A DNA stretch of 64,000 bases from Syncephalis fuscata (lineage: Eukaryota; Zoopagomycota; Zoopagomycetes; Zoopagales; Piptocephalidaceae). The position numbers and the translations under genes are program-made. Below, in pieces: positions 2,856 through 63,900 of the stretch. The stretch covers positions 62,001 through 126,000 of the forward strand of contig JAHLTZ010000035.1 in the NCBI GenBank assembly GCA_025786725.1, written 5' to 3'. Below the pieces are notes generated by a model. The model did no database searches. It saw only the letters and a list, made by a program, of their open reading frames with translations, and was not told where the DNA came from. Every line of letters begins with the position of its first letter. The stretch's first letter is position 1.

Positions 2856-5800
2856 ATGGAGACAGCAGTGTGCCAGTTGTTGGCCCAATCAACAGTGGCA
2901 GATCCTAATGTACGCGTCCAAGCTGAATTGGAACTACGCCGTATGGAAACGACATTACCTGGTAAGAAATACCGTCGATAACTAATGGCTAGTTGTTAAT
3001 AGCCCGTACACAACTGTAGACTATGCTGCTGTGCTGTTACGCTGCTCCATGGAGACAGGTGTTGAAGATTATGTGCGTCAGATATCCTTTATTATAATGT
3101 TATATAATCAAGTGTATAAATAGTCTATAATTATCTTAACTTTTATGTATATTATTATACGCGGCTGCACTGGCACTCAAGAATTACATTGATGGACATT
3201 GGTCACACGAGGCTGAACACTTTACAGCGCCAGAACCATCCGATCAGGTAAATAACAGTATCTTAGTTGATCTAACAGTATAATAACCATAACAATTGAT
3301 GTATAGGTGAAAGCAATGATACGAGAAGGCTCTTTAGTAGGATTGGCCGATACAGAACGAAATATTCGTACAGCATTTGTAAGTATCTTATTTCTATTAA
3401 TTGTATATTATTAATATAATATAATATAATATAATATATGTATTATATATATATTATATCTTATAAAGGCTTCAGTGGTTGCAAAGATTGCTCACCAAGA
3501 TTGGCCAGAACAGTGGCCTAATCTGCTAGAATCGCTAGTTCAATTGCTACGTGATGGCAGTGCCGATCAGGCCCATGGCGTATTGATTTGTTTATATGGT
3601 AAATATACAGTATAATATATAATAATAGACAATTAACTCATTAATTACTAGAAATATTACAAGTTGATGTTGTTGAACAGCAAATCAGTGCCATTGTTCC
3701 AATTCTATCCGATGAATTACTTCGAGTTATTCGTTCAGATGAGGTTTGTTATACGTAGTTCATAAATGATAATAGTACAAATTGGAATTGCTGCAATATA
3801 GATCTATCCAACTATGACACGAGCACGGGCCATTAAAGTGTTTAGAACTTGTTTAGAGGCATTATATACGGTTAAAGAAACGCAACAGGATCAAGTTCAT
3901 CGTATCATTGAAGCTATAGTGCCATATTGGCTAGAAGGATTCTTCCATGTATTAGCCTTACAAAATGCCGATGAAACATCTGTATTACTGAAACTTGAAT
4001 CCATTCGAGTAAGTGTTGCACCTTTACACAGTTATTTATAATAATATTGCTATAATTAGACTCTTTCAGTAATGGTCCAGTCATTTGCCGGTAATATGAA
4101 AGATCGACTAGCCAAGATTATTGAAGTAGTATGGGCTGATCTTAAACGCCATCAAGAGTTATATCCTTTTATCGTGTTATTGCTACCTATTTATTATATA
4201 TTTATTTATTACCTAGTTATTACTTAACTTTTACTAATTGATTTATTTGAATACATTTATTAGTGAATCGGCCAAAGATGATTCACCTATGACATGGACT
4301 GGTCAAGGAGAAGATGGCGATGCCACGGGATTTGCTACTTTGTTGATTGCTGAACTTGAATTTGAACATCAATGTGTACGCAAAAAGACTGCTTCAGCAT
4401 TCTATGAACAAGTTGATGAACAGGGCAATTCACTATTAGCTCAAGTAATGCCATTATTAATTACCTTTATGCAAATTACTATGGAACAGGTCAGTATTAG
4501 TCCATAACTGCTCAAGTGGCTATTTAGAGTAAATGACAACTAATAGTTCAATACAATGATTAGGCAGAGGCATGGCTTGAAGATGCTACTCGATTCATTC
4601 AAGATGAGGATGAAGATTCATTTAATGCTAGTGTACGCGCTTCAGCTTTTGACTTATTCCAAGTAAGTATTTATAATACAAAATATAATGTTTTATTAAA
4701 TATATATGTATATATATATATTATAGAGTTTATTGACTCGTTATGAGACACCCACGTTACAAGCAATGTTATTTACTTGTAATCAAATATTTACTACATC
4801 TACTACAGCCAATCAAACACCAGGTCATAATGATTGGTAAATATGAATATATATAAATATATAATATATAAATAATAATAAGTAATTAATGACAATAACC
4901 ATCATAATCATAATTATCATTGTCATCATATATAGGTGGCGAGCTGAAGAAGCATGTTTTGCCGCTATTGGACTTGCCTCAGATATTATTATCGACAAGT
5001 TGGCTCAACTAGCTCCATTACAATTTGCACATCAAGATTTGTTTACGGAGTTGATTCCTAATCGATGCCAACAAAAGAGTAAGTTATTATATTATAATAT
5101 ATATATATTAATTATTGACTATCTATTATTGCTCTATTAGACTATCCATTCTTACAAAGTCGTGTATTACTAGTAAGCAGCCTATTTACTGATCAATATT
5201 CAACGGCAATGGCCGGTGAACTAGTACAAGTCATGGTATCATTATTGAAAGATGGTGCATCCATTCCTGTACGTGTATCAGCCATGAAAGCACTTAATAG
5301 GTAATATACAGTTATAGCTATAGCTATGTTATAATAACTACTAATTAAATATGATATTAGTTATTCTCAACTCGATAATAAAAGTATTGTCGGTCCTTAT
5401 CGAGAATTTGTGGTTTCTGATGCTATGCAACTAATTAAAGATGCTAGTGGAGAAACATTGCAATTAGTATTAGAAACACTATTTGCATTCTTAAAGGTAA
5501 TTAATTATATTGATATTAGTATCAATAGTATCAATTAACCTATTGTAATTAGGCAGGTGAATTATCACCACAACCTATTGGTATTGTATGTACCACTCTA
5601 TTGGAAACATGGACCAGATATCCAAATGGTAATTACTAATACAATACTTAATGAATTAACTATATACATATAATAGATCATATCTGTGCTAGTGTTATTG
5701 AGGATATTTATGATTTATTATGGAGTAATGAAACAGTGGCCCCTATGGTATTTACAGCTTCAGAACCATTCTTTATTCAAATATTCTCTCAACATGAACA

Positions 5801-7512
5801 ACAACAACAACACAGTACAGAAGCCGTATTAGTAAGTTGATATATAATAATATACAACTAATATAATATATAACTAATATAATATAAATAATTGAATAGT
5901 TTGGTCTTAATTTAATTACACAATTGGCTAAACGACGACCATCTTCATTGACCGGAGAATGTTTAGCACGAGTATTCCCATTACTTTTATCAACTTTATT
6001 GACTTCACAACATCCTCAAGTAATGCAACAAGGTGCTCAATGTTTATCTCAACTACTGTTATGGGATAGTTTATTTATTATTAATTGGTAAATATAATAT
6101 ATTATAAATATGTTGAACATTATGTATAACTATTATATTATACTATATTATATTATACTTATATTATTATATATTTATATATATTATATTATACTATTAT
6201 ATTATATTATATTATATTGTCTAGGCAAGATGCAGGATCAGGTCAACGAGGTGTAGATGGTCTATTACAGTATATCTCTCGTCTACTTGACCCAGTGGTC
6301 AGTGAAGCAGCAGGATCTACAGTGGGCCATTTGATCATTCAATTATTACAAAAAGTAAAATAATTATAAAGAACATAATACAAATACTAATCATATATAT
6401 ATATTATATGTTTTATATAGGCAAGAGATCAAGTAAATGAAAGTTTACCCATCTTATTACAAGCAGTCATGATCCGTTTAACTATGAGTGAAACGGCCAC
6501 TCAAATTCAGGTAAGTTTATTAATAAACATTAATAATCACTCTCTATATACATCATCTAATATACATAATAGTCACTAGTTATGGTATTTGCTGAACTAA
6601 TCCGTTCACAAACAAAAGTCACTATTGACTTTCTACATGCTACAACAGCATCACAAGGTGTTACAGGCATGCAACTATTACTTAGTAAATGGTGTGAGAA
6701 CCATCCTTATTTCCACGGTTATTTCTCCATTAAAATGAGGTATATAGTAATATAGATTGATGTAGAACCACTACTTACTGGATATAATAGCATTTATGCT
6801 TTATCTATACTATTAGCCAATATGGATGACCGTCTTAGCCAAGTACAACTTAAAGGAGATCTTATGCCAAGTACCGATGGTCGTATTGTTACTAGATCTC
6901 GATCCAAGTCACATCCAGATCAATATACTGTGGTACCGGCACCGGTTAAGATTATGAAATTGCTACTAGCTGAATTACAAACTGATGAAGCACCACGACC
7001 AACGGGCAGTGTTATTGGATCAGATAATGTAGGATAGTTAGTATAGTCTATATTAATAGATTGTAACATTATATATTATATGTAGGAAGAGGAGGATGAA
7101 GATGAGGAAGGTGAATGGGAAGATCTTGAAGAAGAAATGGGACCTTCTTTTGATTTCATTTCTGGTAATAGTTTTTAATAATAATAATTGGTTGTCACCA
7201 TCATTAATATTAATCATGTCTTTAGATCTACTTACTTCAACAGGCGATGATCTTAATGTCAACAATGAAGATGATGAAGATGAAGATGATGGAGTGGATG
7301 CCGTTGAAAGAAGAAAGGATCCAGTCTATATTATGAATATTAAGGTAATCCTATTTATATTATTACTAACAACTATTAATAACATTATTATATAGGAACA
7401 TTTAATTGGATTGTTTAAATCATTTGCCCAATCTAATCCAGTTGTATTAACTGATATGGCACAGAGATTAACCCCTCAAGAGCAATCATTGCTTCAATCT
7501 ATTCTCGTTTAA
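2856..7512 (+). CDS. Importin-9 / Kap114-like karyopherin beta
   Basis: Nuclear import receptor of the importin-beta superfamily; the family carries histones, TBP and other cargo through nuclear pores in a RanGTP-controlled way. The gene has about 24 exons, many 60-200 nt. The start at 2856 gives METAVCQLLAQSTVADPNV, the usual importin N-terminal helix, followed by VRQ|AALALKNYIDGHW, the Ran-binding Importin-N region. HEAT-repeat-like helices fill the rest. Near 7086-7330 a long acidic stretch (EEEDEDEEGEWEDLEEEMG, then a run of Asp/Glu) matches the acidic insert of the IPO9 C-terminal region. The end is LTPQEQSLLQSILV with stop at 7510-7512. Introns at 3082-3160 and from 4161 begin ATATCCTTT and look U12-type. 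It is tail-to-tail with Pol5, 84 bases apart. Confidence 0.85.
3082..3160 (+). other. U12-type AT-AC intron in importin-9 gene
   Basis: The intron begins ATATCCTTT, the U12 5' splice-site consensus, contains TTATCTTAAC at 3131-3140 as a U12-like branch site, and ends in AC at 3160, 20 bases later. Removing it joins GTG CGT CAG to GCG GCT GCA in frame, giving VRQAALALKNY, as expected for importin-beta proteins. No GT-AG alternative in this stretch restores the frame as well. Confidence 0.85.
4161..4254 (+). other. Second U12-type intron in importin-9 gene
   Basis: The 5' end after CATCAAGAGTT is ATATCCTTTT, again the U12 donor consensus. A TTACTTAAC branch-like site lies at 4220-4228. The 3' end is either AC at 4254 or AG at 4263; both keep the frame into SESAKDDSPMTW. 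The reading frame upstream ends in a stop if the intron is retained. Confidence 0.75.
6120..6220. repeat. TATAT-rich low-complexity stretch in an importin-9 intron
   Basis: Imperfect ATATTAT repeats make this intron about 135 bases, longer than its neighbours. Similar shorter runs are at 3405-3455 and, in other genes, at 9425-9445 and 28655-28680. Confidence 0.7.
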
Positions 7513-10500: not shown

Positions 10501-11911
10501 TTGATCAATTGTCTTTCCAGTAATCGTCTGGTTAACCTTAATACGTTTAACTAGTGGCAATAGAATTTTAATGCACTTTTCATTATCTTGTTGACTGGCA
10601 GTAGTCATTGCTTTAATCTAATATCAATAGTGTTAATATAATATAGTATGAATGTATGTATGTATGTATTACCGTAGTAAGAACACATTGATGTAAATAA
10701 CGATCTGTTGATGACAAGTGTACAATTAGACTATTCATAATATTTCTACTAAATATATCGGTAATCACCGTGGCTGGTAGACCAATAAGTGCTTTTTGCA
10801 TTAATAGAAATCCCCAGTATTTACGTTCATGTGAGGTGCCTTCACCGAACAGTCCATTGTCAACAAGTACACGCCATCTTGTAAGGAATACTTCTCTATC
10901 TTCGGTAAATATAGGTTTAGAAGTAGTGGCAAATGCTTGTGGTAGTAGTTTTGACCATACTGAATGTAGTTGTGGATGCCATACAGAGTGTAATTCTGTC
11001 TGTTCACCAGAGGCTGATTCACGCATTAATGGACCCAGATGAACTAGATTATTGGCGTGTAAATATGGCGTGTCCCATTCCGGTGATAATAAACGTATTC
11101 TAGGCATATACGTATTGATACTATCTAATTGTTCAAGAGCTAGTGCAAATGCTAGTGCATCTGGTGTGGTAATACCATCTTTAAGTACTTGATTGGCCAC
11201 TATAATAAGTATATTATCTTTTTGAGAGTGGTCATAAATAGCCGGTAATAATGCTATTAATACTTGGTGGGCCACTTCACGTAGAAATGGTTTTTGACGT
11301 CCATATTCTATAAGACTGGTCACCATTAATAGAATATCGCTATCTTTAGTAGTGTCACGGGATAGTGCAGTTGATTGAGCAATGCTCATAAATCCAAATA
11401 TACGACCAAATAACATATCACGCTCTTCCTAGTAATTATAACTACATATTAGTAATAGACTAACTATTGGTAATGGATGCTTGCCTGCCCACTCATTTGT
11501 GCATTAGTAGCGGTTTCTTTTAATATCATATTCATAAGCGTTTCAACTGTTAAGAAATCCAACATTGACAATAACTATATTCATAGCAATATTAGATATG
11601 AATGGCATGGATAATATATATATAGTTACCTCTGTAAGTGTTAACGAGAAGCCTTGTCGTGCACCTTGTCGTGGGCTAGGTAGACCGCGTACTAATCGCT
11701 TTAATGCATAAAGAACATCTTTAGCACATAGTAATTCAAGTCGTTCAACAGTATCCTCTTGTTCCAGCCATTGAGACCAGTCGGACGTGTTGGCGCTCTG
11801 ATGTTCTTGTTGACGTTTCTTTAACTCAGTAATAAGAGACAAGGCAGAGGATTCCCGCTTTGTTACGTCCAAAGACGCCAAATCCCAAAACAATGGCAAT
11901 GTATTAGACAT
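7597..11911 (-). CDS. Pol5 / MYBBP1A family nucleolar protein (DNA polymerase phi)
   Basis: Despite its name, this family acts in the nucleolus in rDNA transcription and ribosome assembly rather than as a replicative polymerase. The chosen ATG (11911) gives MSNTLPLFWDLASLDVTKRE, matching the family's FWDLAS start. LYALKRLVRGLPSPRQGARQGFSL, shown here as LKRLVRGLPSPRQGARQGF, is the hallmark block. The middle is helical ARM/HEAT-like. An acidic tract (DDSDEDSDDSDISYDSAND and more) lies at about 8830-9190. The end is basic (KKGRATSSI, stop 7597-7599), as expected for a nucleolar protein. About 12 short introns. In the acidic tract at about 9165 one G appears to be missing (GAAGAG-AAGAAG), otherwise the frame would run straight through Glu/Asp. 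Convergent with importin-9. Confidence 0.8.
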
Positions 11912-60940: not shown

Positions 60941-63900
60941 GTTGTTGTTGTTGTTGTTGTTAGTGCCTAATTAATATTAATCGTTTATTATGACTTACTT
61001 TACGTGTAAATTCATCAAATGGAATTTTAATGGTTGATGGCATAGCACCCTTGTGTCGGTATTGATAGAAACGAATATGTTCCTGTACAAGTCGACCAAG
61101 TGTGTACAATAACAATTCTAAATGATCCTGGCTCTTGTTCAGATACTTGGCAAATGACTATAGATAATAACAATGTTAAATAAATATTCTAATATACAAT
61201 ATTTATAACTTACTCGACGTAATGATTTTGTAATGGCATATTTCTGTGCTCCAATAAAGCTATCAAGCATAACACTAATGGCCATATCGATATCTTCGGT
61301 TCGAACGAACTCACGCAAGTGCATACGAGCATGAGCCTCGGACATTCTTATCATTGATTCGATATGACGCACGGTAATAGGAATACTGCCACCCGCCTAC
61401 AAATGTACTAGTTAGTTGTTATTGTTATAGCTAATAAACAATCTTACCAATGATCACGTCGCAATTCTGCATATAATTGCGCTACTTTATCTTGATCCAT
61501 TTGGTGTAGTTGTGGCTGGACGCGATCCTTGGCAAACATAATATATTTACGCAATAAATCTTGAGGAATAATCTAATGAGCGTATTAGTATATTAATAGA
61601 CATGCTAACTAATAAAGATCGTTGTTGTTTACATCAGCATCTTGTTCCGGTGCCTGTACAGTATCTGATTCTGGTGCATATTCAGGATGGCTTCTAATAT
61701 GACTATCTACCACAAACTTGGCCAACTGTTCGTCAATTACTGGGTCCACTGTATCTTTAACCGTACATAGAATGTCGAAGCGAGATAGAATTGGTTCGGT
61801 TAATTCAACATTTTGTGAGAAAGGTATTGCTGGATTGTAACGACCACGAATAGGATTGGCCGCGGCAATGACGGCACATCTTGCTTGCAGTGTTGTAACA
61901 ATACCTGCCTTGGAAATGGAAATAGATTGTTGTTCCATTGCTTCGTGAATACTTGTTCTATTAAACCATTAATATGGATGCATCAACATTGATCTTATTA
62001 TTGATCTTACCGGTCAGAATCGTTCATTTTATCAAATTCATCAATAAGACAAACGCCTTTATCGGCAAGTACAAGTGCACCGCCTTCCAGTGTCCATTCA
62101 CGGGTTACTGGATCTTTACGTACGGAGGCGGTCAAGCCCACTGCTGATGCACCTTGACCAGTGGTAAATACAGCACGATGTGCTACCTTTTCAATATACT
62201 TTAAGAATTGAGACTTGGCCGTACCCGGATCACCAAGCATTAACATATTAATATCGCCACGTAGACGATGTTTCCCTTGAATATCCTTGGGACAGCCACC
62301 GAATAAGGCAAGGGCAATACCTGTTTTAATATCTCGATGGCCGTAAATGGATGGTGCAATACTTTTAATGATCTATTAATTACAGGTTAGTTATTGTATT
62401 TGGTATATTGTATTATCTTAACACTTACACGTTGGCCAACACGTTCATCGCGTGCCAATTCACGAATAGCTCGTTCATCCTCTTCGGTTAATCGATAGCT
62501 GGAATAACGATCGGCCTTTTTATTAATATGATTTGCCTCGATAACCGTTGAGAATACAGGGAATCCATGCTGTGTATTAAGTGAGGCATCGTAATTATTA
62601 CGATAGATACCCGTCACTTCCTATCAATTAAATATATTTAGTATTATTAATAACTGTAAATATCTACTATTAATGCCTTACAATTTCTTCTCCTGGTTTG
62701 GCCGTATCAACTAGATCCCATAGCAAAATTACTTCTCTGTGTCGTGGTAAACGACCAGGTGGCACCATAGATGGACTTTCTTGAAGGGTTAGTTTTTGAT
62801 AATTGCGATAGACCGTCTAATTAATGGTTAATAAAACACTTTGTAAATATAGACTTGGTAGTTACCTGTTCCGAGACAACTTCAAATGGACCACGTGATT
62901 GACAAGAAGCACATCGCTGTATACGAATTTCTGTATGGGCATCCTGACTAAATGGACCCATAATCATGCCACATTTAACACAGTTGAATTTAACGTACTT
63001 CAACTGAGGAAATACACCAGTACGACGAGTAACTACACCGGTAACTCGTACAAGACAATTGATATGGTTACGACTGTATAGATACAAATAAGCTATTGAT
63101 GTTAGTGATTATAACGATCTACTTACCGTAAATCTCTTAGACTAACCATGGCAGGTAGATCTGTAATACGAACATGAACCTCAGGATGAATATCATCATA
63201 GTGTTGCCACATAAGTTTGACTACATCATGGGCAACCGTATCAAATATAGCCAACATTTCGGTAGGCGCATTGGCTAGGAAATATGCTAGAATACTCTTT
63301 GATTCTGCCAAATGCGTATAACTAACTTCAAGACTTTCAAGATTCTCTAATTATCATATCGTATATTATTTAGATAGTGTTACATAGTAGCAATGCCACT
63401 TACGTTCACCCAATCGTTTAATACGGGCACCGTAAACGGATGTACCACGTTCATCGACAAATGTCTTTAAAAATTGGCTGAATTCATTGGCAATTGTCTT
63501 TCGTGGACCACTCATGGTAACCCATTCGGCAATATTTCTTGCTTTAACATCCTGTAATGCTTCAACAGGGAATACCTATTGATATAGATTTGTTAATAGC
63601 GGCTATGGTTATTCACTATTAAACAGTATTGTGTATACCTACATCCATTTCTTCTTCTGGCATCATAGCCATTGGATCTATATCATTACGCATAACACGG
63701 CGTTGACGTGTCACAACCGGTAGATCTAATGGTTCATCTAATAGCATAGATTATATCAATATATGCTATATTTATGTTCACTATATTCGTAATAGCTTAC
63801 CATCCATGATAAATGCTGCCGGAACACGGCCATCTATACGACGTTGTTCAGCATCACGTCGACTCATAATGGCCTCTGCAGCATGTCGATCGGACACATC

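Follow-up and report, generated by a model that had tools for sequence, protein, structure and literature searches.

The stretch from position 3082 to 3160 on the forward strand, within the Syncephalis fuscata gene for importin-9, is very probably an intron that starts with AT, is predicted to end with AC and is likely removed by the minor spliceosome. A second such intron would occupy positions 4161 to 4254 of the same gene (all positions are those of the window, i.e. the whole 64 kb stretch of DNA analysed). The U12-type reading rests on the sequence signals, the reading frame, the continuity of the protein, Rfam matches for U11, U12 and U6atac, and the recurrence of such donor-branch pairs at dozens of loci. 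A preliminary description had already classed 3082–3160 as U12-type, and these signals, the three RNA candidates, two protein candidates and the many further loci bear this out. Minor introns are a known kind; what is added here is the second intron, candidates for the machinery, a genome-wide set and the scars left in public annotation.

The importin-9 gene and its predicted AT-AC introns

In a model built by hand, the gene extends over positions 2856–7512 of the forward strand, with 24 exons, 23 introns and a stop codon at 7510–7512. The best PDB match of the predicted protein is Importin-9 (E 2.9e-120, residues 18–1024), and on this comparison the gene is one encoding importin-9, as the preliminary description had it. 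Its closest public relative, annotated as 'armadillo-type protein [Syncephalis fuscata]', shows 98% identity over the query and is identical to our model except in three places. The model protein has 1026 amino acids, or about 1032 with a shift of one acceptor to 7225: for the ordinary intron 7165–7243 the model uses the acceptor at 7243, while 7225 would add DLLTST and is probably the true acceptor, backed by the public proteins of S. fuscata and S. plumigaleata. Twenty-one of the 23 introns are of the GT...AG form; the other two start with ATATCCTTT and end with AC.

The first of these, intron 2 (3082–3160, forward strand, 79 nt, phase 0), has ATATCCTTT at 3082–3090, an exact fit to the minor donor consensus RTATCCTTT, and the same exact fit is found at the donor of intron 8 at 4161. 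As U12-type branch sites we accepted sequences near TTCCTTRAC and close to the 3′ end. In intron 2 the putative branch site TTATCTTAAC lies at 3131–3140; its TATCTTAAC motif agrees with TTCCTTAAC at 7/9 positions and ends 20 nt before the 3′ end, which is formed by the AC at 3159–3160. Both the exact donor and the distance between branch-like site and terminal AC had been described correctly beforehand. The core CTTAAC, present exactly in the branch sites of both AT-AC introns, can, as judged by eye, pair with GUAAG of the predicted U12 RNA if a single A bulges out.

Removal of intron 2 at the AC joins VRQ to AAALALKNY in frame and gives VRQAAALALKNY; the in-frame join thus agrees with the earlier description, whose peptide VRQAALALKNY had dropped one alanine. 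The junction region aligns without gaps to human importin-9 (VRQAAALALKNYIDGHW over IRQLASVILKQYVETHW), and by frame and protein comparison the AT-AC termini restore the frame in both introns. Intron 8 (4161–4254, forward strand, 94 nt, phase 2), absent from the earlier description, combines the ATATCCTTT donor with a putative branch site TTACTTAAC at 4220–4228, which agrees with TTCCTTAAC at 8/9 positions and ends 26 nt before the 3′ end. Its AC junction gives the same length as the Thamnocephalis protein; the public S. fuscata model has two residues more there.

Alternative readings of positions 3082–3160

The public S. fuscata protein (P0001) passes straight from VEDY into NYIDGHW, which requires a GT at 3073 and an AG at 3181, i.e. 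an ordinary forward-strand GT-AG intron at 3073–3181, removed by the major spliceosome, in place of 3082–3160. A codon-usage score also leans slightly in this direction, favouring AG 3181 over AC 3160 (2.7 vs 0.7) with the donor fixed at 3082; this score is weak, was trained on the single importin-9 gene, often favoured positions that are not splice sites and was not used as evidence. We regard such an intron as very improbable. It would delete VRQAAALALK, a segment that aligns ungapped to IRQLASVILK of human importin-9, and its donor GTGCGT is unlike those of the 21 GT-AG introns of the gene, which are mostly GTAA. It also gives no account of the pair formed by ATATCCTTT and CTTAAC, and a similar distortion in the public Bud20 model speaks against it.

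Major-type AT-AC introns have ATAAGT-like donors. The donor at 3082 is instead the exact minor consensus, and in this genome U12-type donors and branch sites are paired dozens of times, alongside candidates for the minor snRNAs. Although AT-AC introns of the major (U2) type are known in other species (PMC8280824), it is very unlikely that 3082–3160 is one of them. Least credible of all, with a probability close to nil, is the absence of any intron, the stretch being exonic or the gene copy broken: the beginning of the intron does seem to be read as coding sequence in the S. plumigaleata model, but in S. fuscata reading through 3082–3160 leads to an in-frame stop after 13 residues, and the remainder of the gene is open across 24 exons.

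If 3082–3160 is removed as a U12-type intron, the U11 RNA with its 5′ AAAAAGGGG would pair with UCCUUUU of the donor, and the U12 RNA would pair through GUAAGG with the CUUAAC of the branch site, one A being bulged. U6atac, by means of AAAGGAGAGA, should then take the place of U11 on UCCUUU, and catalysis would link VRQ to AAALALK.

Candidate components of the minor spliceosome

Rfam models were searched against the whole genome, with 14 prokaryote genomes as controls, and three of the four minor-spliceosome RNAs are predicted in S. fuscata. The U11 candidate scores 47.5 bits, above the Rfam cut-off of 39 (three of the 14 controls matched at E 10, none over the cut-off); its alignment shows AAAAAGGGG at the 5′ end, an AUCAAGA loop and an Sm-like site AUAAUUUUU. 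The U6atac candidate, which carries AAAGGAGAGA, reaches 37.8 bits and exceeds its cut-off of 33, a level attained by none of the 11/14 controls that matched at E 10; this search gave 12 matches, the second-best being an ordinary U6 gene. For U12 the candidate is full length (model positions 1–151) and its alignment shows UUAAUGAGUAAGGAUAUAAC, but at 34.6 bits (E 4.1e-4; no control among the 14 at E 0.001) it stays below the curated Rfam cut-off of 53. U4atac was not found in the genome with the Rfam model: the best match had 21 bits and an E value of 2.78, 11 of the 14 prokaryote controls matched as well at this loose threshold, and the candidate locus, when scanned again, showed no match to U4atac up to E 1. 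Of the minor snRNAs whose search the preliminary description proposed, U11 and U6atac have candidates above the cut-off and U12 has one below it, and U4atac was not found.

The predicted U12 RNA (L001) has GUAAGGAUA at the position where human U12 has GUAAGGAAA. A co-variation between U12 and the branch site, with A predicted as the ninth base counted from the branch-site end, was discarded, as this base is not enriched: 20/47 loci have it, and A makes up 38% of the intron background.

Protein searches covered five families (PDCD7/59K, zf-U11-48K, CENATAC, SCNM1 and DIM1). A candidate for the tail of 59K/PDCD7 scores 29.2 bits, above the cut-off of 27, with no control matching, and the frames adjoining it resemble by eye the remainder of the protein. 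With zf-U11-48K there were two matches, one below the cut-off and one at it in a frame reading CPFNPGHLVPRTIFSRHCWEC; this CHHC finger of the 48K type scores 20.8 bits alone and 21.8 with its frame neighbours, around a cut-off of 21.1, and the evidence for 48K is weak, two prokaryote controls having matched, one of them over the cut-off. Searches of the genome for CENATAC (PF14968) and SCNM1 (PF15803) gave no match, the controls being equally silent and the power limited. The DIM1 search, also of limited power, found a single gene in three pieces (L062–L064 on C245) and no TXNL4B, the partner of CENATAC; by eye, the lone DIM1-family gene resembles TXNL4A of the major spliceosome. The earlier description had set against its own reading a genome lacking all minor-spliceosome components; what the genome holds are candidates for U11, U12, U6atac, 59K and 48K.

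Paired donor and branch signals in the genome

In the 28.95 Mb genome there are 42 occurrences of the pattern RTATCCTTTN{20,50}YCTTAAC and a single one of the reversed pattern; with a spacing of 51–81 the counts are 8 and 3. The 50 strict loci pooled from both spacings represent 47 distinct ones, 30 of AT and 17 of GT type, at least two of which (L026 and L042) score poorly as coding and may be due to chance. Loosening the branch site to CTTRAC (spacing 21–51) gave 79 matches vs 2 for the reversed pattern, or 69 distinct sequences, 36 AT and 33 GT. These counts concern strong-motif loci only, of which a few may be chance matches, and intron 8 of importin-9 itself falls just outside the patterns.

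An AT-AC majority, as seen in the strict set (30/47), does not hold with the looser branch site (36/69), so that the excess depends on stringency; AT-type sequences make up about half of the strong-motif loci. When 20 GT loci from the loose set were inspected, all 20 had an AG 5–25 bases past the branch motif. Immediately 5′ of CTTRAC, a C or T is present in 34/36 AT loci vs 14/33 GT loci (Fisher p 2.9e-6), which suggests a stricter branch-site requirement for AT than for GT introns.

Intron ends and protein domains

From the strict set, 10 of the 30 AT loci and eight of the 17 GT ones were picked for recognisable peptides and hence form a non-random sample. After splicing of the AT loci to AC, a Pfam domain extends across the junction in 7/10 cases (TPR_12, HECT, SMC hinge, NF-YB, syntaxin-6 N, DHHC and an Aladin-like WD40); two of the remaining loci have no domain, and in the third, fingers flank the junction only. 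With GT loci spliced to AG the domain crosses the junction in all eight cases, one of them, a protein kinase, scoring just below the curated cut-off. AC was compared with the nearest in-frame AG in two cases: for NF-YB the AC end gives 96.4 bits and the AG end 81.0 (a loss of 15.4), and for syntaxin-6 the values are 59.3 and 48.4 bits (a loss of 10.9). At three loci (L035, L040 and L046) no in-frame AG is present up to about 60 bases away from the branch motif.

Probable traces of AT-AC introns in public gene models

The public S. fuscata importin-9 model likely misreads both AT-AC introns: VRQAAALALK is missing and ELYPFIV stands at intron 8. In the public S. plumigaleata protein VRQISFY is found at the intron 2 junction and ELYPLYI at intron 8. 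Since ISF and (E)LYP correspond to ATATCC translated in those phases, both AT donors are likely conserved in S. plumigaleata, as judged from the protein alone; the Thamnocephalis importin-9 record does not include the intron 2 region.

Splicing of the Bud20 locus at AC would yield RRTKDLDQIHDDL. The query used for this protein lacked seven residues (RYFVSTS region), owing to a wrong acceptor. A core D-L/I-D-x-I/V/L is present at the junction in 93 of the 120 listed among 133 matches, and the other 27 differ mostly by substitutions only or by late starts. Scars that resemble a translated donor occur in three of the 120 listed matches, namely the public S. fuscata protein (KDILLKAIHDDL), that of Thamnocephalis (KDILTIHEDL) and a JGI metagenome protein, in which KDILF is followed by what appears to be the whole translated intron. 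The public importin-9 and Bud20 models appear to force GT-AG introns, leaving scars of translated donor sequence.

NF-YB has 7563 matches, of which the best 120 were considered; none of those listed is named S. fuscata. Three of these 120 carry EYP inserts at the site of the S. fuscata AT-AC intron (L044): Syncephalis pseudoplumigaleata with SEYPCSSDRC (P0127), Gigaspora rosea with SEYPFITDRC (P0219) and Apophysomyces ossiformis with SEYPFYFSSDRC (P0224). A second, different NF-YB protein of S. pseudoplumigaleata (P0230) is normal at these codons, and of the four entries for Rhizopus microsporus, two are short there and two are normal. Because GA|ATATCCTTT reads EYPF in phase 2, a shared AT-AC intron is likely; read in the other species from their proteins, this suggests that Zoopagomycota, Glomeromycota and Mucoromycota have the NF-YB intron in common.

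Relation to known minor introns

Larue et al. 2023 (PMC10639083) give 205 minor introns for Rhizophagus and 249 for Basidiobolus, and state that the survey classified annotated introns and that in some pipelines minor introns stay without annotation. Like S. fuscata, Rhizophagus irregularis and Basidiobolus meristosporus are early-diverging fungi that have minor introns; Rhizophagus is reported to have all four minor snRNAs, whereas U4atac was not found here. The AT-type share of 36/69 strong-motif loci compares with about 26% in human in the same paper, the selection of introns being different. Blastocystis, also treated there, has minor introns enriched in AT-AC (77%) with a median of 39 bp, while S. 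fuscata has a mix of types and longer introns. Among the former zygomycetes, Rhizopus oryzae and Phycomyces blakesleeanus have AT-AC and GT-AG minor introns, 3–4 and 17–20 respectively by two methods based on ESTs, which is fewer than here (Bartschat and Samuelsson 2010, PMC2846911).

In human cells, AT-AN introns depend on CENATAC, an example being intron 21 of IPO5, likewise a minor AT-AC intron in an importin gene (PMC8280824). IPO5 is a different importin, and neither CENATAC nor TXNL4B was detected in S. fuscata by the searches of limited power described above. If both are truly absent, S. fuscata would offer a test, set up by nature, of the need for these two proteins in the splicing of AT-type minor introns.

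A search of the main texts of open-licence PMC papers, that of Larue et al. 2023 included, found no paper combining Syncephalis with minor introns or the spliceosome, none on minor splicing and early-diverging fungi by that phrase, and only Larue et al. 2023 on U12-type introns and Zoopagomycota; S. fuscata may be present among the species of that survey.

This evidence places the Zoopagales among those fungi in which a minor spliceosome is likely at work, and importin-9 provides a codon-level case of public gene models hiding AT-AC introns, which surveys based on annotation may undercount. The donor scar peptide (ISF, IL or YPF according to phase) can be searched for in protein databases, which could bring to light minor introns missing from annotation even where there is no RNA. 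A wider reading, which we offer tentatively and hold to be rather doubtful as a whole, would be that early-diverging fungi keep ancient AT-AC introns at fixed codons, as with NF-YB in Zoopagomycota, Glomeromycota and Mucoromycota, that such introns end up as peptide scars in pipeline-made gene models and are therefore undercounted in surveys of annotated introns, and that S. fuscata, rich in AT-AC introns, splices them without the CENATAC that human AT-AN introns need or its partner TXNL4B.

Further donor-like sites

The window contains 14 RTATCCY sites, and at four of them (3082, 4161, 11751 and 62281) a branch-like motif follows on the 3′ side. The surroundings of the site at 11751 do not look intron-like by eye, and it was set aside. 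At 62281 a donor-like ATATCCTT is followed 133 bases on by the motif TATCTTAAC. Elsewhere in the genome, a stretch running from ATATCCTTT to TCTTGAC is present in five identical copies, on C2, C24, C230, C265 and C268, and perhaps lies inside a repeated or mobile gene.
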